From assembly GCF_030453185.1 (NCBI RefSeq), contig NZ_JAKDKW010000002.1, positions 22,229 to 86,228 on the forward strand: a stretch of 64,000 nucleotides of DNA. The letters are read 5' to 3'. Numbering within the stretch: the stretch's first letter is position 1; every line of letters starts with the position of its first letter. This document shows positions 8,312 through 64,000 of this stretch, piece after piece. This DNA comes from Yaniella sp. Lineage in GTDB: Bacteria > Actinomycetota > Actinomycetes > Actinomycetales > Micrococcaceae. A model generated the notes under the pieces. It searched no databases, was not told the origin of the DNA, and saw only the letters and a program-made list of their open reading frames with translations. The translations under genes and the position numbers were made by a program.

Positions 8312-9058
8312 TTAGACGTCTTTCACTGCGCTACCGTTTGCGACCTGTAGGGCCTGGTGCAGCGTGAATTGGCCAGCATATAGTGCTTTGCCGATAATGG
8401 CGCCTTCGATGCCGCGATCAACCATGCCGGTAAGTTTGGCAATATCGTCCAGAGTCGAGATCCCGCCAGAGGCAATCACAGGTTTTCCCGTTTTTTCGGC
8501 GATCTCGACAAGCAGGTCAGTATTTGGGCCGGTCAGGGTACCGTCTTTTGTGATGTCCGTGACGACATAACGTGCACAGCCAGCTTCTTCGAGCTGTTCG
8601 AGCACGTCCCAGATGTTGCCACCTTCTTCGACCCAACCGCGGGTCGCAAGCTTCTCGCCACGCACGTCGAGGCCTACAGCAATCTTGTCACCATATTTTT
8701 CGATCACTTGCGCGGTCCATGCCGGGTTTTCCAGGGCAGCAGTGCCAAGGTTGACGCGTGTGGCACCCATTTCGAGTGCTTCATCTAAGGAAGCGTCATC
8801 GCGCAAACCGCCTGATAATTCAATTTTGATGCCGAGTTCACTCGTGATGCGACGGATGATTTCTCGATTATGACCGTGCCCGAACGCAGCGTCCAGGTCA
8901 ACCAGGTGGAGCCATTCGGCACCCGCCTGTTGCCAACCAATTGCCGCTTCAAATGGGTCCCCGTAGTTAGTTGCGGTACCGTAAGCACCCTGAACGAGAC
9001 GCACGGCTTGGCCGTCCTGAACATCGACGGCGGGTAAAAGTTCTAGTGGTGTGGACAT
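8312..9058 (-). CDS. priA: Bifunctional phosphoribosyl isomerase PriA / HisA
   Basis: [50 protein letters not shown]; his gene context. Confidence 0.93.
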
Positions 9059-12249: not shown

Positions 12250-14292
12250 CTAGATTTCGGCGGATAACCGTTTTAGGCTCGAGAGCGCTTGCTCAGTAGA
12301 CCGAGTCGCCCAAAATTCGGGCATAGAAGCTTTCAAGAATCCGCCGTATCCGGCGGTCGCTAGTCTCGAATCCAATATGGCAACAACTCCGCGATCCGAG
12401 GTTGACCGAATAAGTCGTCCGGCACCCTGCGCCAGACGTACCGCAGCGTGGTTTGCTGACACAGCCATGAAACCGTTACCGCCTCGCTGGCTGATATATC
12501 GAGACCTAGCGGAGGCCAGAGGATCATCCGGGCGTGGGAACGGAATTCGGTCTATGGTGACCAACCGCAGAGCATCACCGGGCACGTCAACTCCCTGCCA
12601 AAGTGTGAGAGTCCCGAAGAGACACGTGCGCGCGTCTTCTGTGAACTCATCGATAAGTCCGGATAGCGTTGATTCACCTTGCAAAAGGATGTTCAGTTTA
12701 TCGCCAAAACGGCGTCGCATTTCTTCAGCTGCAGATTTAGCTGCGCTGCGTGATGAAAAGAGGCAGAGCGCACCTCCCTTGGATGCCTCAAGAAGTTGTT
12801 CGAGACGTTCATGGGTTAGAGCCGAGGGCTGTGGGCCCGGCTTGGGCAGATCTTGAGCCACGTAGAGGATGCCCTGTTTTGGGTAATCAAAGGGGCTACC
12901 AACATCCAAAGTTTTGTACTTCGCTCCACCGTTGAGTGTGAAGCCCAAATCGCCAACAATTGCATCAAATTTTCCACCAACGGCTAATGTCGCTGACGTC
13001 AGGATGGTGGTGGATACGTTGAGCAGTTTGTCTCGAAATTTCCCGGCGATTGAAAGGGGCGCAGCATACAGTAGCGGCGCGCTGTACGGGTCGGCTTCAA
13101 CCCACCCTTGGCCTGGTTCGAAATGGGATGGCCTGGTCGCCCAGACGACGGTATCCCCTTTGGGCTGCGAACCGGCTGAAATAAGTAACTCCGAAGTTTC
13201 GAGAATTTCGCTCAACCGATTTTTCACCAGCTGCCGGTCAGAATCTTCGGCTTCTTTAGCACCTGGTTCTTTCAGATCGCTCATCATCTGTCGTGTCTCA
13301 TCCCGCACTGATTCGAGCGCAGTGAGCTGATGCTCATTAAGTCCCTGGGCAAACCAGCCGGTTGGTGCCGGAGTAAACGCAGCTTCCAGCCCCGCTGCAG
13401 CATCCGTGAGATCAGAGGCCACGACCGAAGCCTCTTGACGCGCTTGCTTGGCGACATTACGAATCATCGGACCTGACAAATGCGAGGTAACTGCCGAGGT
13501 CACCCGATCAGTGAGCTCGTGTGCTTCGTCAATAACGATTGCATCCGTTTCGGGCATAAGGTTTAAATCTTCGAAAGCAGCAATCGCCAACATGGCATGA
13601 TTCGTAACGACAATGTCTGCTTTTCCTGCAGCCTCACGGGCAAGTTCAGAAAAACATTCTTCTGCGAAGGGGCATTTGGATGCACCGATACATTCACGCG
13701 CTGTCACCGAAATTTGACGCCACGCTTCATCGGTCACACCAGGTTTTAGATCATCCCGGTCCCCCGAGTCGGTGTCTTCGGCCCAGTTACGCAAGCGAAC
13801 AACCTCTTCACCTAACTGAGATAAGGGTTGACCGGTTACATCCGTCGACCCAAGCAGGCTCTCGTCATCGGCCTCGGTCGCAGCACCGTGTAATTTATGT
13901 TTGCACACATAATTTGCCCGACCTTTTAGTAATGCCACATCAACGGTTCTTGGCAATGATGGGCCAAGCGTGTCTAACAGGCGCGGCAAATCGCGGTTGA
14001 TAATCTGGGTTTGAAGCGCCAACGTCGCCGTTGCAATCACGACTGGTGAGTCGTTACCCAGCGCATAGTCGACGGCAGGTACTAAATACGCTAAAGACTT
14101 TCCGGTGCCGGTGCCTGCCTGCACCAGTAAATGGGTGCCTGTTTCAAACGCATTGGTGACCTCTTGGGCCATTTGCTGTTGCCCCGGACGCGTTTGCCCA
14201 CCAAGTGCGTCGACGGCGTCAGCCAGCCACGTTCCAACTTGGGTTTGCGCTTGGCTAGATTGCTTGGTGTCTACCGGTTGATTACCGGACAT
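12250..14292 (-). CDS. ATP-dependent DNA helicase, DinG/XPD-like
   Basis: Walker A VQAGTGTGKSLAYLVP, DEAH (VIDEAHELTD), motif VI RLAQGAGRLIRS; Fe-S type cysteines (CKH, CIGASKCPFAEEC). Confidence 0.93.
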   Translation of the reverse strand: MSGNQPVDTKQSSQAQTQVGTWLADAVDALGGQTRPGQQQMAQEVTNAFETGTHLLVQAGTGTGKSLAYLVPAVDYALGNDSPVVIATATLALQTQIINRDLPRLLDTLGPSLPRTVDVALLKGRANYVCKHKLHGAATEADDESLLGSTDVTGQPLSQLGEEVVRLRNWAEDTDSGDRDDLKPGVTDEAWRQISVTARECIGASKCPFAEECFSELAREAAGKADIVVTNHAMLAIAAFEDLNLMPETDAIVIDEAHELTDRVTSAVTSHLSGPMIRNVAKQARQEASVVASDLTDAAAGLEAAFTPAPTGWFAQGLNEHQLTALESVRDETRQMMSDLKEPGAKEAEDSDRQLVKNRLSEILETSELLISAGSQPKGDTVVWATRPSHFEPGQGWVEADPYSAPLLYAAPLSIAGKFRDKLLNVSTTILTSATLAVGGKFDAIVGDLGFTLNGGAKYKTLDVGSPFDYPKQGILYVAQDLPKPGPQPSALTHERLEQLLEASKGGALCLFSSRSAAKSAAEEMRRRFGDKLNILLQGESTLSGLIDEFTEDARTCLFGTLTLWQGVDVPGDALRLVTIDRIPFPRPDDPLASARSRYISQRGGNGFMAVSANHAAVRLAQGAGRLIRSTSDRGVVAILDSRLATAGYGGFLKASMPEFWATRSTEQALSSLKRLSAEI

Positions 14293-15820
14293 AGCTTAGG
14301 TACTGGTCCTTATCTTCAGGGTAGACGACGACCGTCATCGCCGTACCTTCTGCCTCATATGTTTCAGCCAGAATTTCAGTGTCATCCGAGTGTAGCCGGT
14401 GTACAACGTCGCCCTCGGTATATGGCACCAAGAGATCCATGTGCACAGAAGGTCGTGGTAATGCTGCTGCGATAGTTGATTCAAGTTCAGCAAAACCCTC
14501 GCCGGAGGCAGCAGATACTATGACAGCGTTGGGGTAACGACGTCGTAACCGCACCAACACGAGAGGATCTGCCGCATCGGCTTTATTGAAAATAATGACT
14601 TCAGTCATGTCGTTGATCTGTGTATCCGCAAATACCTTATGTACCGCTTCAATCTGCGCCTCGGGCTCCGGGTGGGAGGCGTCAACAACGTGCAAAATGA
14701 GATCTGCTTCTTCGACTTCTTCCAAGGTTGATCGAAACGCTTCAACCAACTGAGTTGGTAATTGCCGAACGAAGCCAACAGTATCGGTCAGTGTGTAGGC
14801 AACACCATCTTCAGTTTGCGTACCACGGACCGTGGGATCCAACGTGGCAAACAGCGCGTTTTCGACAAGAACGCCTGCCTTGGTCAACCGATTGAGAATT
14901 GAAGACTTGCCAGCGTTGGTGTATCCGGCAATAGCAACGGAAGGCACCTGGTTACGACGGCGTCGAGCACGTTTTGTAACACGCGCATTCTTCATGTGTT
15001 TGATGTCGCGCCGCAGTTTCGCCATTCGGTCACGAATACGACGGCGGTCAAGTTCAATCTTCGTTTCACCTGGCCCACGTGAGCCAATACCGGCACCGCC
15101 GGCGGCCTGACCACCAGCCTGGCGTGACATCGATTCACCCCAACCACGCAGACGCGGCAGCAAGTATTCAAGCTGGGCCAGCTCGACTTGAGCTTTCCCC
15201 TCTTTTGATTGCGCATGCTGAGCGAAGATATCCAAAATCAAGGCTGTGCGGTCAATAACTTTGACCCCAACAACGTCCTCGAGGCCCCTGCGCTGCGATG
15301 GTGCTAACTCAGTATCAACGATAACCGTATCAGCGCCGTGTTCGCGAACCACGTCAGCAAGCTGCCGAGCTTTACCTCGCCCCAGGAACGTTGCAGGATC
15401 TGGGGCATGGCGGCGCTGGATAATCCCATCGAGCACTGTTGATCCTGCCGTGCTGGCCAATGCTGCTAGCTCGCGCAGAGAATGTTCTGCTTCGACGACG
15501 GAACCTTCCGTCCACAAGCCTGCAAGTACCACATGTTCCAGCCGAAGTTTTCGGTATTCAACTTCGCTAACGTCTTCGAGTTCGGTCGAAAGTCCTGCAA
15601 CTCGGCGGAGTGCTTGGCGTTGTTCTAACTCAAATTGGTCACCATCAAACTCAGTATGGTTTGATGCTCCGTCATCGAGCGCTTGAGCACCTGCCGCTAC
15701 ATCTGGTAGGGCAGCGCTGCTGCGCGATGGCTGGGCATCATCGGCAGATAGAATTCGATCGATCAACGCTTTGACTTGCTGATCGACGTGCGGCTCAGAG
15801 GGCTCGTATTGACTGACCAT
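14282..15820 (-). CDS. hflX: GTPase HflX
   Basis: GAGIGSRGPGETKIELDRRRIRDR, G1 AGYTNAGKSSILN, DTVGFVRQLP. Confidence 0.96.
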   Translation of the reverse strand: MVSQYEPSEPHVDQQVKALIDRILSADDAQPSRSSAALPDVAAGAQALDDGASNHTEFDGDQFELEQRQALRRVAGLSTELEDVSEVEYRKLRLEHVVLAGLWTEGSVVEAEHSLRELAALASTAGSTVLDGIIQRRHAPDPATFLGRGKARQLADVVREHGADTVIVDTELAPSQRRGLEDVVGVKVIDRTALILDIFAQHAQSKEGKAQVELAQLEYLLPRLRGWGESMSRQAGGQAAGGAGIGSRGPGETKIELDRRRIRDRMAKLRRDIKHMKNARVTKRARRRRNQVPSVAIAGYTNAGKSSILNRLTKAGVLVENALFATLDPTVRGTQTEDGVAYTLTDTVGFVRQLPTQLVEAFRSTLEEVEEADLILHVVDASHPEPEAQIEAVHKVFADTQINDMTEVIIFNKADAADPLVLVRLRRRYPNAVIVSAASGEGFAELESTIAAALPRPSVHMDLLVPYTEGDVVHRLHSDDTEILAETYEAEGTAMTVVVYPEDKDQYLSYVR

Positions 15821-16045
15821 TTTCTCCTTGTTCAGAGGCTAAATCCTTATCTAGCAGTATCTCATATATGTCTTTCCCAGGCCCGCCATCATAGGTCGGT
15901 GCTGGTGAATGTTCATTGCTTTTCGGCAACTCGCTGTTATCTGGAACAACGCATTTCCAGCATCCTGTATTCCAAAGCGCAACGCTGCACTATGGCCTAC
16001 CGTGCCTGCAAATACTCCGGTGAGAAAGTATTAGACTGGCTGGTA

Positions 16046-16690
16046 ATGAACGAGCATTACTTTTCCGCTGCCCCTACAGGTGAAGAGCGCCGCCGCCGCA
16101 TTGATGTACAGATTGCCGGTGAAGCTTTCACAGTCGACACTGCCGGCAACATTTTCTCTCCCGATGGTCTTGATCGTGGCACCGAAGTTTTATTGGACAC
16201 CGTGCCGGCTCCTCCCCAAGAGGGAAGTTTTCTAGACATCGGTTCAGGCTGGGGGCCTATTGCTCTCACACTTGGCATGCTTGCGCCAAATGCAGACGTT
16301 CTGGCCATAGAGGTCAACGAACGTGCCGCCAAGTTAACAGAAAAAAACGCTAGCCAGCTTGGCATATCGAATATTACTGTCAAACATCCCGATGAAGTGA
16401 ACGCGGATACAGGTTTCGACCTGATCTGGTCTAATCCTCCGATTCGCATTGGGAAGAAGGCCCTCCACGAACTATTAATTCGTTGGTTGCCTACACTGAA
16501 TCCCGGCGGAGATGCTTGGTTGGTGGTTGCTAAAAAACTCGGGGCCGATTCACTGATGCCGTGGATCGACAAAATGCTTCAGGAAGAGAGTCCTGACCAA
16601 TTCACCGTACGCCGTGCTGCGACACACAAAGGTTTTCGTGTGCTTCATATTGCAAGAGAATTAGAGCTTCCCAAAGAATACAGCCGTTAA
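16046..16690 (+). CDS. Class I SAM-dependent methyltransferase (RsmC-like small domain)
   Basis: MNEHYFSAAPTGEERRRRIDVQIAGEAFTVDTAGNIFSPDGLD, LDIGSGWGPIALTL, DLIWSNPPIRIGK; start could also be upstream at 15992. Confidence 0.88.
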   Translation: MNEHYFSAAPTGEERRRRIDVQIAGEAFTVDTAGNIFSPDGLDRGTEVLLDTVPAPPQEGSFLDIGSGWGPIALTLGMLAPNADVLAIEVNERAAKLTEKNASQLGISNITVKHPDEVNADTGFDLIWSNPPIRIGKKALHELLIRWLPTLNPGGDAWLVVAKKLGADSLMPWIDKMLQEESPDQFTVRRAATHKGFRVLHIARELELPKEYSR

Positions 16691-17572
16691 TTTCGCAAAA
16701 GTCGACAGCCTATCCTGATCATGGATCTGTACAACAATATCCCCGTGTTGGGTCGCGACGTTCCAAACGTTCAGTTGGTCTAAGCTAGTCCAGTTTTGTA
16801 AAGCGACGGAGGCTGCCGCTGCCGCCGATGCAAGGTCGTGCCCATGTTGTTTTCCTGTATAGTTACGCAAACGTAATTGTCCCATGCCACTTGTCATCAG
16901 CGGGTCTTGAGGAATGACGAAATTGATGCTTGTGAGCCTGGGAGCTGGCGGCTCAATTGAGGGTTGCTGCTCCAGATCAATAGTCTCGAGTTCCTCGAGC
17001 GTTTCTACAGCAACGGTCACGTGGTTGCTCTGAATATGAATGCTCAGCCCAGGACGAGGATCCAGAAGTCCGGCCGCCATAACTAAGACATCAGACCCCG
17101 CGGCAACGGCTGTTTCTGCGTCTGAAAATTTCCAACTTCCAATGTCAACACCAATATATGAGGGTGTGTAGACCGTGGTGATCGGGCCAAAATCTGTTTC
17201 GAATATGTGATGGCTGGTCTCCTCAGACGCGATCTTCTTTAGCACAGCCAAGATACAGGTTGCCATACGTGCCGGTTCGGTCATGTTTGAAGCAGGTTGT
17301 CCGTCTGCTTGCCAGGCCATGAGCCGGTACTCTGCGGCTGTTGCGCTGGACTGTTCGAGTGCTGGTTTCACAGCAACGATGCCCGTAGCACCAACACCGG
17401 CAATGCGGTCGCACAATGTCACTGCCTGGGTATCTGTTATTTGCACACTATCGGTCGGATCGTAGAATACGACCCAGTCCCCTACCGGTCCGGTAATTTT
17501 TACAAACCGGGTACCGTCGAGGTCATGACTTGCGCGGTTCTGGTCTTGGGTGGATTGAGGAGCGGCGGTCAT
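16661..17572 (-). CDS. Diaminopimelate epimerase-like protein lacking catalytic cysteines (DapF pseudoenzyme candidate)
   Basis: Alignable by eye with DapF: RFVKITGPVGDWVVFYD (FxKxHGxxNDFVxxxD), TLCDRIAGVGATGIVAV (LCDRxxGxGADG), WQADGQPASNMTEPARM where DapF has NADGSxAxMCGNGxR, and LRLRNYTGKQHGHDLASAAAAASVAL where DapF has MRVxERGxGETxxCGTG. Locus is miaA-[this]-methyltransferase-hflX. Confidence 0.75.
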   Translation of the reverse strand: MTAAPQSTQDQNRASHDLDGTRFVKITGPVGDWVVFYDPTDSVQITDTQAVTLCDRIAGVGATGIVAVKPALEQSSATAAEYRLMAWQADGQPASNMTEPARMATCILAVLKKIASEETSHHIFETDFGPITTVYTPSYIGVDIGSWKFSDAETAVAAGSDVLVMAAGLLDPRPGLSIHIQSNHVTVAVETLEELETIDLEQQPSIEPPAPRLTSINFVIPQDPLMTSGMGQLRLRNYTGKQHGHDLASAAAAASVALQNWTSLDQLNVWNVATQHGDIVVQIHDQDRLSTFAKLTAVFFGKL

Positions 17573-17581
17573 ATGATCACC

Positions 17582-18502
17582 TTAACTGGATTCTATGATT
17601 TCCAATGCTTGGGTCTTGAGGTCCGAGTCTTCTGCATCGATCCAATGTACTCGTGGATCGGCTTTGAACCAGGTTTCCTGGCGACGAGCAAACCGTCGGG
17701 TCGCTACTATCGTAGAATCAATTGCCGCTTGTTGGGTCGTAGCGCCCGCAAGATAACCCATCATCTGCCGATATCCTATTGCACGTGAAGCTGTAGGCGC
17801 ATCGGCTAATCCTGCTGCTAGTAACTTTTCGACCTCAGCAACCCAGCCAGTCTCGACCATAGCTGCGACGCGTTGTTCAATGCGTTCGTGTAGCCGTGCC
17901 CGATCAATGCGTAAGCCAATTTGTACCACGGGAGTCATGTCCGGATCATATTGGCGTCTCGGCATATATGAGCTAAATGGTCTTCCTGTCAGCCGGTAGA
18001 CTTCCACGGCACGAATGATACGGCGATCGTCTTTAAGTCGACGCGCAGCATCTGGATCGACGGCACGGAGTTCTGCAGCAAGATGTGCAACGCCAAATTG
18101 ATTAACCTGACTGGTAAGTCGTTCTCTCAGGTCGTCATCGGTTGGTGGAAATTCCAAGATGTCCAGTGCTGCCCTGACGTACAAACCAGAACCACCGGTA
18201 AGGATTGGCGTTTTTGCACGAGAGCGTATTTCGCGAATTTTATCGCGTGCCAAGCGCTGGAACTCTGCGACGCTAGCTTCCATACTGAGGTCGTAAATAT
18301 CTAGAAGGTGGTGAACGATGCCATCGCGTTCGGCAAGTGGGGCCTTAGCTGTACCTATATCCATGCCTTTGTAGAACTGCATGGAGTCTGCATTGACCAC
18401 TTCGCCGTCGAGCGCGTGAGCCAGACCAACAGCAAGACGAGTTTTACCTGTTGCGGTTGCGCCGACAAGGGCGATGACCGGAGTATTAGTTTGCACCGAC
18501 AC
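17582..18502 (-). CDS. miaA: tRNA dimethylallyltransferase MiaA
   Basis: [48 protein letters not shown]. Confidence 0.96.
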
Positions 18503-28593: not shown

Positions 28594-29484
28594 TCATACT
28601 GTGATGCCGCCTTCGGCAAGGTCGGCTTTGATAGCGGCCTGCTCTTCAGCCGTTGCAGCTACAAGTGGCAACCGTACGCGTGCCGACGGGATGATGCCCT
28701 GCCATTGCAGCACGGTTTTGGCTGCGACAGCTCCTTGGGTATGAGTCATGACGGCGCGCTGGATCGGATCCAGTTCAAAGTGTTTTTGACGTGCGGTGGC
28801 GAAATCTCCGGCACTCGCTGCATCAACTAACTCTCGATAGGTGCGCGGTGCAGCATGTCCAGACACTGAGACAACTCCGACAGCCCCGGCAGCCATGAGC
28901 GGCAGAGTCATGCCGTCGTCCCCCGAGTAGACCGCTAGATCGGTATTAGCTAAAACCAACGTGGTCGACTGGTAGTCGGATTTGGCGTCTTTGAGCGCTA
29001 CGATATTTTGATGCTGGGCCAGTGCAATGATGGTCTCGGGCTCGATAGGCATCGTAGACCGGCCCGGAATGTCATACATCATCACCGGAAGATCGGTTGC
29101 GGACGCAATGTATTCGAAGTGCGCCTTGATACCAGCCTGATTTGGTTTGTTGTAATACGGTGTGACGAGAAGTAGACCGTCGGCCCCTGCGGCTTCGGCG
29201 CGTTTAGACAACTCAGCTGAATGCACAGTGTCATTCATTCCGGTGCCAGCGATCACTTTTGCTCGCGCACCCACTGCTTCAACGACGGCTTCAAAAACTT
29301 TGATATTCTCGTCATCGGTTAGTGTTGATGTTTCACCTGTTGTGCCGGTCACGACGAGGCCGTCAGCACCGTTATCCACCAGATAATTGGCAAGCGACTG
29401 CGCTGCATCAAGATCCAAAGCGCCGTCATCCGCAAAAGGGGTGACCATAGCTGGAACCATGGTGCCAAAAATTGGTTCTGTCAT
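28594..29484 (-). CDS. dapA: 4-hydroxy-tetrahydrodipicolinate synthase DapA
   Basis: GTTGETSTLTDDE, LVTPYYNKPNQ, MYDIPGRS, ALKDAK. Confidence 0.95.
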   Translation of the reverse strand: MTEPIFGTMVPAMVTPFADDGALDLDAAQSLANYLVDNGADGLVVTGTTGETSTLTDDENIKVFEAVVEAVGARAKVIAGTGMNDTVHSAELSKRAEAAGADGLLLVTPYYNKPNQAGIKAHFEYIASATDLPVMMYDIPGRSTMPIEPETIIALAQHQNIVALKDAKSDYQSTTLVLANTDLAVYSGDDGMTLPLMAAGAVGVVSVSGHAAPRTYRELVDAASAGDFATARQKHFELDPIQRAVMTHTQGAVAAKTVLQWQGIIPSARVRLPLVAATAEEQAAIKADLAEGGITV

Positions 29485-29619
29485 CTTTACCTCACCGCTA
29501 CTTGTTCGTAGGTTGTCTGAACTTCTAGTCCTCAGCTTACCTGTGACAATAGATGAAAACACCATAGGTCACACGAATGTGATTCGTGTTAACCAACGTT
29601 CGTCAGAAAGTTGCACCGC

Positions 29620-30846: not shown

Positions 30847-31286
30847 GCGCTGTGATACATACTGATAGCGTCGCGTAGGGCTGCTCGGGCACGTTTACGA
30901 TCGCCGGCGGCATCGTAGGCAAGGCCAAGGCGGTACCAGCTGCGCCAATTATCCGGGTCGGCTTCCGTTTCGAGTCGATAAATTTCAAATTCTTGGTCTG
31001 CGGAGTCACGATCAATTCGACCCCGTACTCGGGGCAGATTATCTTCGGGAAGTTTGCCTTCGGTATCGAGAATTCCGGCCAATTTTTCTGTATTGGCTCC
31101 GAAACGGATCTCGCGAATGAGCGCCCAAATGCCGAAGATCACGATCGCTACGACCGCGAATCCCAGCACTTTAGCGATCCAGTTATCCGCGATAATAAAA
31201 GCGAGGGCGGACCATAGTGCCAAAAATGCGAAGAGCAGTGTCAGCGCCGTCAGCAGTGCAACAGCTATTTTGTTTTTCATCTGCAT
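30843..31286 (-). CDS. Membrane protein with a TPR-like C-terminus
   Basis: Two TM segments, then YRLETEADPDNWRSWYRLGLAYDAAGDRKRARAALRDAI. Confidence 0.7.
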   Translation of the reverse strand: MQMKNKIAVALLTALTLLFAFLALWSALAFIIADNWIAKVLGFAVVAIVIFGIWALIREIRFGANTEKLAGILDTEGKLPEDNLPRVRGRIDRDSADQEFEIYRLETEADPDNWRSWYRLGLAYDAAGDRKRARAALRDAISMYHSA

Positions 31287-32062
31287 TAGTCCAAGTCGAG
31301 ATAAGCGTCTAGGCCATAAGACAGGCCAGGACGAGAGGCAACGGTTCGCAGGCCAAGCAGGACACCCGGCATGTAGGACGAACGGTCAAAAGCATCATGC
31401 CGTAGCACTAGCTGCTGGCCGGGCGTACCCATGAGTACTTCTTGATGCGCTTCTAAACCTGCCAGGCGTACCGCATGCACGTTGATACCTGAGACCTTTG
31501 CGCCACGTGCATGGTCTGGATCATGTTCCGTAGCGTCAGGCGAAAGACCGACACCCGCCTGTTCGCGAGCATCAGCAATCATCTCGGCAGTGCGCACTGC
31601 GGTCCCTGATGGGGCATCGATTTTGTTCGGGTGGTGCATCTCAATGACTTCAACCGACTCGAAATACGGGGCCGCTTGGGCAGCGAATCGGGTCGCGAGA
31701 ACGGAGCCAATCGAAAAATTGGGCGCAATTAATACGCCGACGTTCGGGTGTTCAGCGAGGTGATCTTCTAAAACCGACCGCTTATCCGGGGTCCAACCGG
31801 ACGTACCGATCACGGTATGGAGCCCGTTATTGACCGCAAATTGTACAACCTTGGAAGAAACATCGGGCACTGTCAGGTCGAGAACGTGGGTTGCACCAGC
31901 TGCGCTGATATCGTCTAGCGGATGCTTCGAGGAAAGTTTGGCTACCAGTGCCATATCATCAGCCGCGTTGACGGCGTCGATGGCGAACTGTCCCATTTTC
32001 CCGGTGGCGCCTACCAGCGCTACTTTGACGGGGTCTTGTGCAGGATTTTTTTCAGAGGACAT
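31286..32062 (-). CDS. dapB: 4-hydroxy-tetrahydrodipicolinate reductase DapB
   Basis: VKVALVGATGKMGQFAIDAV, EMHHPNKIDAPSGTAVRTAEMI. Confidence 0.95.
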   Translation of the reverse strand: MSSEKNPAQDPVKVALVGATGKMGQFAIDAVNAADDMALVAKLSSKHPLDDISAAGATHVLDLTVPDVSSKVVQFAVNNGLHTVIGTSGWTPDKRSVLEDHLAEHPNVGVLIAPNFSIGSVLATRFAAQAAPYFESVEVIEMHHPNKIDAPSGTAVRTAEMIADAREQAGVGLSPDATEHDPDHARGAKVSGINVHAVRLAGLEAHQEVLMGTPGQQLVLRHDAFDRSSYMPGVLLGLRTVASRPGLSYGLDAYLDLD

Positions 32063-32130
32063 ATGGCCTAGCTTAGTCAATGTTGTGAGCGCCGCACCGA
32101 GTGCTGCAGCAGAGGTTTGTTTTGCACGGC

Positions 32131-54744: not shown

Positions 54745-55647
54745 CTAGTGGTCTTCCTTGGCTACAGGCTGCTCGCCTTCAGGTGTGGCGCCAACTTCTT
54801 CTGCAATTTCCACAGTTTCTTCGTCAACTGGAGCTGCCGTCTGATCTGCAGCTTCTTCAGTCTGTTCTGTGGCTTCTTCGGCCTGTCCGGATTCCAACAG
54901 TTCGCGCTCCCACTCAGCCATTGGCTCTTCGGCCGCACCGGCTTTGCCCTTGCCCTGGTTGCGAACCATGAGACCGTCTGCAACAGCATCGGCAATGACG
55001 CGTGTCAACAGGGCGACGGAGCGGATCGCGTCGTCGTTACCTGGGATCGGGTAGGTGACTTCGTCTGGATCAGCGTTGGTGTCTAGGATCGCTACAACAG
55101 GAATACCGAGCTTGACGGCCTCGTCGATTGCCAGGTGTTCCTTCTTGGTGTCAATGACCCACACAGCAGACGGTGTGCGAGTCATATTGCGGATGCCGCC
55201 CAAGTTGGACTGCAGTTTGTCGAGCTCACGACGAAGCAGCAACAGTTCCTTCTTAGTATGGCCAGAGCCAGCTACGTCGTCGAAGTCAATTTCTTCGAGC
55301 TCTTTCATTCGCTCAACGCGCTTGGAAACGGTTGCGAAGTTGGTGAGCATACCGCCCAACCAGCGGTGGTTGACGTACGGCATGCCGACGCGCGTAGCTT
55401 GTTCGGCGATTGCTTCTTGAGCCTGCTTCTTAGTCCCTACGAACAGGATGTTCCCACCGTGTGCGACAGTTTCTTTGACAAACTCGTATGCACGGTCAAT
55501 GAATGACAGGGACTGCTGCAGGTCAATAATGTAAATGCCGTTGCGCTCGGTGAAGATGAAGCGTTTCATCTTCGGGTTCCAACGACGAGTCTGGTGGCCG
55601 AAGTGGACACCAGAGTCCAGCATTTCACGCATAGTTACGACTGACAT
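54745..55647 (-). CDS. rpsB: 30S ribosomal protein S2 (canonical copy, next to tsf)
   Basis: [51 protein letters not shown]-like [22 protein letters not shown]. Confidence 0.97.
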
Positions 55648-55963: not shown

Positions 55964-57148
55964 TCAGGGATTGCTCATTGCTGGCAGATCAAACTCGATA
56001 TCGCTTCCTCGTTTATTCTTCAACTCGACTTCCCAAAATAACTCACCGTTCTTTTCCTCAAGCTCGATCGATTCGAAGACGGCGGTGGGGTGCAATCCAC
56101 GTGCCTGTTGCACGGCCGCAGCCAGAGAGACGGATACCCGTTGTGATCGACCGATCTCCTCGTCATCATCCTCGGTCTCGCCAAGAGCAATTTCGCCGCT
56201 CGTTGTCACCTCGAGCTCGTACAAAATCCCAGTCGAAACCACTTCGACCTCATATTCGGATCCGTCGTCCTCTCGTTCAACTTCAACAATGACACCCTGG
56301 CGATACTGCTTTAAGACAGCTTCAATAATGTCGAGAACTTCTTGGTAGCTCTCATGATGTGTGCTTGAAGTCGGGACTTGCATCTTGCCTGGCGCCAACA
56401 GTTCGCGTTCCCATTCAGTCATGGGCTCTTCAGCGGCACCGGTTTCGCCCTTGCCCTGGTTGCGGGCTATCAGGCCGTCAGCAACAGCATCGGCAATCAC
56501 CCGGGTCAATAGCTCGACAGAGAGAATCGCGTCATCATTACCCGGGATCGGGTATGAGACCTCGTCTGGGTCAGCGTTGGTATCCAAGATGGCCACAATA
56601 GGAATGCCTAGTTTATTGGCTTCTTTGACCGCTAGGTGTTCGCGTTCTGTGTCAACAATCCAAACAGCAGACGGTGTACGCGTCATGTTGCGGATACCGC
56701 CAAGGTTGGCGCGCAGTTTGGTCAGTTCACGCTTGAGCAGCAGCAGTTCTTTCTTGGTGCGGCCGGAACCAGCTACGTCGTCGAAGTCAATTTCTTCCAG
56801 CTCTTTCATCCGCTCAACACGTTTGGAAACAGTGGCGAAGTTGGTGAGCATACCGCCCAACCAACGATGGTCTACGTATGGCATGCCAACACGTGTAGCT
56901 TGCTCAACGATCGAGCTTTGAGCTTGCCTCTTGGTGCCCACAAAGGCAATAGTTCCACCGTGCGCAACGGTTTCTTTGACGAACTCATAGGCACGGTCAA
57001 TGAACGACAAGGACTGCTGCAGGTCAATAATATAAATGCCATTGCGTTCTGTCAGGATAAAACGTTGCATCTTCGGGTTCCAGCGACTTGTCTGGTGGCC
57101 GAAGTGGACACCGGTATTCAACATTTCCCGCAGGGTTATGACAGCCAT
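55964..57148 (-). CDS. Second ribosomal protein S2 paralogue fused to a C-terminal region resembling two PepSY repeats
   Basis: N-terminal about 255 aa nearly colinear with rpsB ([30 protein letters not shown]...TEWERELL); then [58 protein letters not shown] and [63 protein letters not shown] upstream of ATG 57148. Confidence 0.9.
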
Positions 57149-57326
57149 CTTCGCTCCTCCAGCAGCCGGCACGGTCGCTGAGTAGTTATATATCCGAGTA
57201 GTTTTATAGAATTCGCAAAATTCACTCCCCAGCATACTGTGTTCACAAGACATGCGGCTTTGAAAACTTTTCCACAATTGGCCAGTTCAAGTCCCACACT
57301 TCTTGCCGGACTAGCAAAGTAAGAGC

Positions 57327-63120: not shown

Positions 63121-64000
63121 GTGGTGAAAAAACTTGATAATTCCCCGCGGTGTGGGATATGTGAAACGAAGCTGGTCAAAAACGGCAAAACCAGTGCCGG
63201 TAAGACTCGATGGCGGTGTAAACACTGCGGCGCGTCCACCACCCAAAGTCGACCAGATATTGTCGCCAAAGCCCAGTTCACCATGTGGCTAGAGTGGCTG
63301 CTGTCGAAGAACACTCAACGCGATCTGACGGTGTCCAGATCAACGTTTAAACGCAGCACCGCGTGGTGCTGGAGCGTGATCCCGCAAGCGGAGTCCACCG
63401 GTGAAATTCACCGGTGGATCATGCTGGATGGCACCTACTACAACGGTATGTGCGTGCTGATCGCCATCACAGAAGACCATGTCATCGATTGGCAGCATTG
63501 TGACCGCGAGAAAACCGTGGCATGGGAAGCCCTGCTGCGTAAAATTCCGGCTCCCGATATTGCCATCGTGGACGGCCAACGCGGTCTGATAGCCGCCATT
63601 GAAAACATCTGGCCCGACACCAAAATCCAGCGCTGCTATTTCCATATCCAACTCACCGGCACCAAGTACCTGACCCGCCGGCCCGTGCTGGAAGCCAACA
63701 AGACCTTACGGGCCCTCTACACATCGCTCACCGACGTCGACAGCCTCGCCGCCGCGACCACATGGCTCACGGCATTTCACGCCTGGTACCAGCAATACCA
63801 AGACTTCCTCAAGCACCGCAGCCACCTGGCCAACACGCGGCCAGACCAACGTCCCAAACGACTGCGGGCTGGTCAGAAATCCTGGTTTACCCATCAACGC
63901 ACCCGGTCGGCTTATTTCGCCTTGAAACGCTTAGTCACCCATGATCAGCTGTTCATCTGGCTCACAGAACGCGACCACCCTGACGAGTCGCTGCCCCGGG
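63121..64000 (+). mobile_element. Insertion sequence transposase (IS1249/IS256-like), truncated by window edge
   Basis: Hand translation from GTG 63121: VVKKLDNSPRCGICETKLVKNGKTSAGKTRWRCKHCGASTTQ...RWIMLDGTYYNG..., AIVDGQRGLIAAIENIWPDTKIQRCYFHIQ; open to the window end. N-terminal Cys4 zinc ribbon plus mutator-type transposase core. Confidence 0.85.

Follow-up and report, generated by a model that had tools for sequence, protein, structure and literature searches.

The closest described relative of the protein reported here is diaminopimelate (DAP) epimerase itself, DapF (TIGR00652, PF01678; e.g., M. tuberculosis Rv2726c and C. glutamicum 5H2G/5M47), in which Asn11, Asn66, Asn157, Asn190, Glu208, and Arg209 are ligands of DAP (PMC12039745; DapF ligand numbering is H. 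influenzae-style). DapF is also known in a role that does not need its cysteines: in E. coli it forms a complex with RppH (6d13), and the DapF(C73&217A) protein still binds and activates this partner (PMC4227774). In Fusobacterium, whose genome is without the DAP pathway, a DapF relative has become HisR, a fast histidine racemase that keeps both cysteines (PMC11602996). Corynebacterium glutamicum, an actinobacterium, runs a split lysine pathway (ddh together with dapD/dapE/dapF); Ddh converts tetrahydrodipicolinate to meso-DAP in one step, without LL-DAP (PMC6382763). The protein described below, which we call pDapF, resembles DapF in locus, length, and predicted fold, but it has neither the cysteines nor the DAP ligands, it scores below both profile cut-offs, and dapD and dapE are absent from its genomes. 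Its likeness to E. coli DapF would lie in a role independent of the cysteines, although the E. coli protein is also an active epimerase, whereas in pDapF, by this analogy, only the scaffold may be left. Like HisR, it is a retained DapF relative, but without the two catalytic cysteines, and its genomes share the Ddh shunt with C. glutamicum, where the succinylase branch also persists and DapF is active, whereas pDapF genomes have the shunt only. No description of a dead DapF was found in the literature searched, where the only study joining diaminopimelate epimerase with the term pseudoenzyme concerned a non-photosynthetic alga.

The window (the whole 64,000-nucleotide stretch analyzed) comes from a genome that is 97% complete in 156 contigs. 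pDapF is the last gene in a recA-recX-miaB-miaA-pDapF run on the minus strand, and its immediate surroundings are as follows.

14282-15820, minus strand: hflX, a conserved neighbor
15776-16690, plus strand: methyltransferase-like ORF, convergent with pDapF
16661-17572, minus strand: pDapF, putative DapF-derived pseudoenzyme, 303 aa, ATG start (ORF list and profile matches)
17582-18502, minus strand: miaA, a conserved neighbor, 9 bp upstream of pDapF

The frame runs its full length without interruption, as had been noted in a sequence-only reading of this DNA. The methyltransferase-like ORF and the 3' end of pDapF share 30 bp, and the real start of this ORF is probably downstream of 15776. The slot order recA-recX-miaB-miaA-X-methyltransferase-hflX-dinG is common to the genus of the window (g1), to two further genera with degenerate proteins (g17 and g12), and to genera with intact DapF, which bears out the miaA-dapF-(methyltransferase)-hflX position proposed earlier. 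Elsewhere the window carries two rpsB (ribosomal protein S2) genes in a row (54745-55647 and 55964-57277, both on the minus strand; 81% identity; each passes the TIGR01011 cut-off), the second of which is extended upstream by 43 aa, probably through a wrong start; a bifunctional hisA-trpF isomerase of the PriA type (8312-9058, minus strand; 364.7 bits); and an IS1249-family transposase (63121-63999, plus strand; 311 bits, cut-off 300) that reaches the window end.

The homology of pDapF to DapF is real but, judged by its scores, weak. The TIGR00652 match spans residues 22-289 and scores 40.7 bits (E 1.8e-10), below the equivalog cut-off of 114.65, and Pfam DAP_epimerase (PF01678) gives 23.1 bits against a gathering score of 34.7; identity to DapFs of the same family is ~30%, and the best solved relatives found by sequence are all DAP epimerases. 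AlphaFold2, run with the window protein and 14 active DapFs in the alignment, returned a model with mean pLDDT 89.3 and pTM 0.85, for which the top PDB match in Foldseek was DapF (E. coli RppH-DapF complex 6d13, E 1.5e-18; TM 0.6-0.7), followed by PhzF and proline racemase-like folds. A retained DapF fold is thus predicted; because the alignment consisted of active DapFs, the model is support for that fold and not independent proof of it. The TIGR00652 match and the predicted fold both agree with the earlier alignment by eye over the length of DapF and give no sign of a different family. With the DapF fold predicted and the conserved dapF slot occupied, pDapF is a dapF orthologue by descent. 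Chance or an assembly error can be excluded because the protein recurs in eight further genomes of the genus, at 55-84% identity to the window copy, so that it is present in all nine.

What pDapF does not share with DapF is the active site. The old motifs map as follows, all on the minus strand.

17267-17290: first catalytic block, E-M-C73-G-N75-G-V-R in DapF, now S-N-M-T-E-P-A-R
17021-17032: GNPH motif (with the Asn157 ligand), now QSNH, residues 181-184
16853-16858: Glu208-Arg209 substrate ligands (HERG in DapF), now Thr239-Gly240
16817-16843: second catalytic block, T-x-S-C217-G-T-G-A in DapF, now G-H-D-L-A-S-A-A-A

Both blocks and the loss of Asn-Pro-His had been read correctly from the letters of the window. 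In register, Cys73 is replaced by Met97 and Cys217 by Leu247; GNG of the first block has become T-E-P, so that Asn75 is now Glu99, and the remaining side-chain ligands Asn11, Asn66, Asn157, and Asn190 are Gly31, Gln88, Ser182, and Ser215. The histidine of GNPH, at position 184, is retained. Across 18 active-site columns that are invariant, bar isolated single-residue exceptions, in 40 active DapFs drawn from the family and the order, the window protein is without both catalytic cysteines and every DAP ligand checked. No genome of the genus, g17, or g12 has a cysteine at either catalytic position, and the g12 and g17 proteins, whose sequences were read, are without the catalytic cysteines and most ligands. 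In the genus, the two positions hold Met/Leu and Leu, hydrophobic residues that would suit a sealed inter-domain cleft. Two conserved cysteines in register elsewhere were not found: the only cysteine common to all genus copies is Cys54, in an LCDR motif and not catalytic, and in three of them (G005, G006, and G008) it is the single cysteine of the whole protein. By residues and scores, then, pDapF is predicted not to be a functional DapF, having neither the catalytic cysteines nor the DAP ligands and lying below the curated equivalog cut-off; the earlier statement that it cannot epimerize LL-DAP stands as far as sequence can show.

The lysine pathway of these genomes gives the lost site a context. 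Two of its upstream genes lie in the window.

28594-29565, minus strand: dapA, intact, over its cut-off
31286-32080, minus strand: dapB, over its cut-off

Both had been called intact in the sequence-only reading. Elsewhere in the same genome, with no linkage to pDapF, are ddh (a PF16654 match; TIGR01921 411 bits, cut-off 180.6) and an intact lysA (433.9 bits, cut-off 297.9). Thirteen of the 14 degenerate-DapF genomes in the family have ddh by PF16654 (eight genus genomes that are at least 88% complete, g17, and all four of g12), the sole one without a match being 71% complete. None of the 14 has a match to dapD (TIGR03535), which is over the cut-off in 16/16 comparison genomes, and dapE (TIGR01900) is over its cut-off in 0/14 versus 15/16. 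The comparison genome below the dapE cut-off is G020 (genus g13), where TIGR01900 reaches 59.7 bits at best; it carries dapD and an intact DapF and has no match to ddh, and another desuccinylase may take the place of dapE there. The succinylase branch and the DapF active site are lost together, but the counts are not independent, owing to the shared ancestry of the species, and represent two independent events in the family. ddh accompanies dapD and intact DapF in six of the 16 comparison genomes (G015, G029, G030, G031, G063, and G151), and 33 of the 200 family genomes combine ddh with a DapF over the cut-off; therefore ddh came first or is permissive. The pDapF genomes show a Ddh-only lysine route, with ddh and lysA present and dapD and dapE absent, and LL-DAP is for that reason probably not made and an epimerase not needed.

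Three explanations had been offered for how lysine might be made, or not made, in this organism. A route through meso-DAP dehydrogenase is the one that agrees with the genes found. With dapA, dapB, ddh, and lysA all present, the organism is unlikely to be a lysine auxotroph. A second dapF was not detected in the window genome with PF01678 or TIGR00652; since both genome searches also missed pDapF itself, more weight is given to a protein query, and this did not support a second copy either. Its sole other match, a partial one at C55:14161-14550 (32% over 125 residues, E 2.5e-4), was judged unrelated; it lies in a 476-aa ORF that we take, by eye, to be MutY. We give next to no credence to the idea that pDapF is itself a working DAP epimerase using other residues: its fold and locus are of course those of DapF, but both cysteines and all ligands are lost, cysteine mutants of E. 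coli DapF are inactive (PMC4227774), no LL-DAP is expected where dapD and dapE have been lost, and Ddh gives meso-DAP directly.

TIGR00652 is over its cut-off in 184 of 200 family genomes. The 16 below it comprise nine of g1, four of g12, one of g17, and two (G155 and G173) with no TIGR00652 match at all in this search, which may be assembly gaps. A species tree was made from five neighboring proteins, RecA, MiaB, MiaA, HflX, and DinG; loci named for Nesterenkonia, Rothia, Pseudarthrobacter, and Sinomonas fall in the same family. In this tree, g1 and g17 are sisters (100), and g12 is joined with g11 (100), whose DapF motifs are intact; therefore, two origins are needed, and on the species tree dead DapF arose at least twice in the family. 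A single origin of all pseudo-DapFs was rejected on the same placement of g12 beside g11 and apart from g1 and g17. In the DapF protein tree itself, g1, g17, and g12 fall together (98/98), but the branches involved are very long (5.07 and 3.42) and were flagged as unreliable. When g1 and g17 were left out, g12 was still not drawn beside g11, and a tree uniting the two was not rejected (p-AU 0.33). Horizontal transfer of pDapF is not formally excluded.

Over the order, DapF exceeds the TIGR00652 cut-off in 366 of 396 genomes. A profile built from pseudo and active DapFs, run on 29 selected genomes of the order, recovered four further degenerate DapFs from two other families.

L238:7345-8322, minus strand: degenerate DapF of G415 (family f13), ~325 aa
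L239:7625-8647, minus strand: degenerate DapF of G054 (f3), ~340 aa
L237:1483-2325, plus strand: degenerate DapF of G372 (f3), 281 aa
L236: degenerate DapF of G451 (f3), truncated, ~175 aa

None of the four has the catalytic cysteines, and each lies next to miaA in the miaA-hflX slot. In 16 other order genomes without a TIGR00652 match, the same profile found no DapF, and about a score of genomes in the order have lost dapF altogether. The order thus shows both outcomes, loss of dapF and its retention without catalysis.

The obvious question is whether pDapF is simply a relic, a non-functional pseudogene yet to decay. Its pathway role is gone, the gene is truncated in G451 of another family, and the genomes of the order that have lost it speak for this reading too. 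Nevertheless, pairwise dN/dS within the genus is 0.085, 0.132, 0.123, and 0.098, equal to that of the adjacent MiaA over the same pairs (0.115, 0.130, 0.120, and 0.066) and of active DapF pairs from other genera (0.084-0.33); in most genus pairs dS is near or above 1, so the ratios are rough, though far below 1. The g12 copies, 81-92% identical among species, give 0.12-0.22. There are no stops or frameshifts, all complete genus copies keep full-length frames while synonymous sites are near saturation, and 100 columns are invariant among the eight aligned genus proteins. Polar effects would not preserve pDapF, as no gene follows it in its strand run. pDapF is under strong purifying selection, comparable to that on active DapF; a relic is very improbable, and for the genus this reading is largely refuted. 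With its catalytic residues lost and the protein nonetheless maintained by selection, pDapF is, on the residue and codon patterns, a pseudoenzyme, and the repurposing suggested in the sequence-only reading gains support from the same ratios.

In active DapFs, column entropy is 0.00 at the ligand sites and 1.28 elsewhere; in the genus, it is 0.94 for the 14 old ligand sites against 0.88 for the other columns (permutation P 0.60). In pDapF the special constraint on the pocket is gone, but that on the remainder of the protein persists. Active DapFs have 83 near-invariant columns, of which the genus preserves 29, chiefly fold residues (e.g., Gly59, Gly61, Gly64, Trp147, Asp161, Arg173, Arg236, Trp261, and Trp270), several of them common to all pseudo lineages. 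The main rival to a non-catalytic reading is that pDapF is a new enzyme using the DapF fold and a new acid/base pair, Glu99 and Asp/Glu246, on some other small molecule, much as PhzF employs acids within this fold. In the eight aligned genus genomes, Glu99 never varies and residue 246 is always acidic (Asp or Glu), both sites lying where the old helices start, which leaves room for new chemistry; PhzF and related folds are among the structure-search matches, and an orphan DapF has been repurposed elsewhere, as the histidine racemase HisR (PMC11602996). HisR, however, retains both cysteines, the pocket columns of pDapF are no better conserved than the rest, and the columns of the old distal ligands (88, 182, 215, 239, and 240) are among the most variable. 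Moreover, the acid at 246 gives way to Thr in g17 and to Ser in g12, and the Glu99 and Asp/Glu246 pair is not conserved in g12. We therefore regard a new enzyme as unlikely, but as the alternative most worth keeping in mind. A second proposal is that pDapF is a ligand sensor binding meso-DAP or lysine and regulating Ddh, DapA, or cell-wall enzymes. The lysine route of the host does run via Ddh, and Actinobacteria offer a dead cell-wall enzyme turned regulator in CwlM (PMC4946905), but no DAP side-chain ligand is left in the genus, several of those positions are hypervariable, and the gene is linked to neither ddh nor lysA; a sensor seems to us distinctly improbable.

The account that we favor, and consider probable by analogy with E. 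coli, is that pDapF is a non-epimerizing dapF orthologue kept for a scaffold job independent of catalysis, likely modulation of a partner protein. In this scheme, ddh and lysA would carry tetrahydrodipicolinate to meso-DAP and lysine without LL-DAP; loss of dapD and dapE would have taken both substrate and purpose from the epimerase step; and the DAP-binding site would then have been lost while the protein was retained at its locus under purifying selection. The retained scaffold may bind and modulate a partner as E. coli DapF does RppH, and this type of job can be considered known because E. coli DapF mutated at both catalytic cysteines stimulates RppH. A function shared by all of the pseudo-DapF lineages has against it that they have little in common beyond the fold residues.

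What is unusual here is that a dead DapF has been retained repeatedly and under selection, and this points to a second role of DapF, so far undescribed in these bacteria. As a drug target DapF is regarded as having one purpose only, and its annotation at the dapF locus is automatic; automated reconstruction of the lysine pathway would misread pDapF genomes in either direction. The replacement of a branch by a one-step shunt, Ddh, can be followed here gene by gene, dapD and dapE being lost, whereas dapF was kept. Genomes that are free of the epimerase but hold DapF under selection separate the two possible jobs of the protein without mutagenesis, and a second role in Actinobacteria becomes directly testable through gene removal. 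More tentatively, and with the odds in our judgment somewhat against it, DapF of the Actinomycetales may have an ancestral, conserved function independent of catalysis, so that once Ddh relieves it of epimerization, the site erodes while the scaffold survives, in several families independently. If so, the pDapF genomes would expose a job hidden in all genomes where DapF is an essential epimerase as well.
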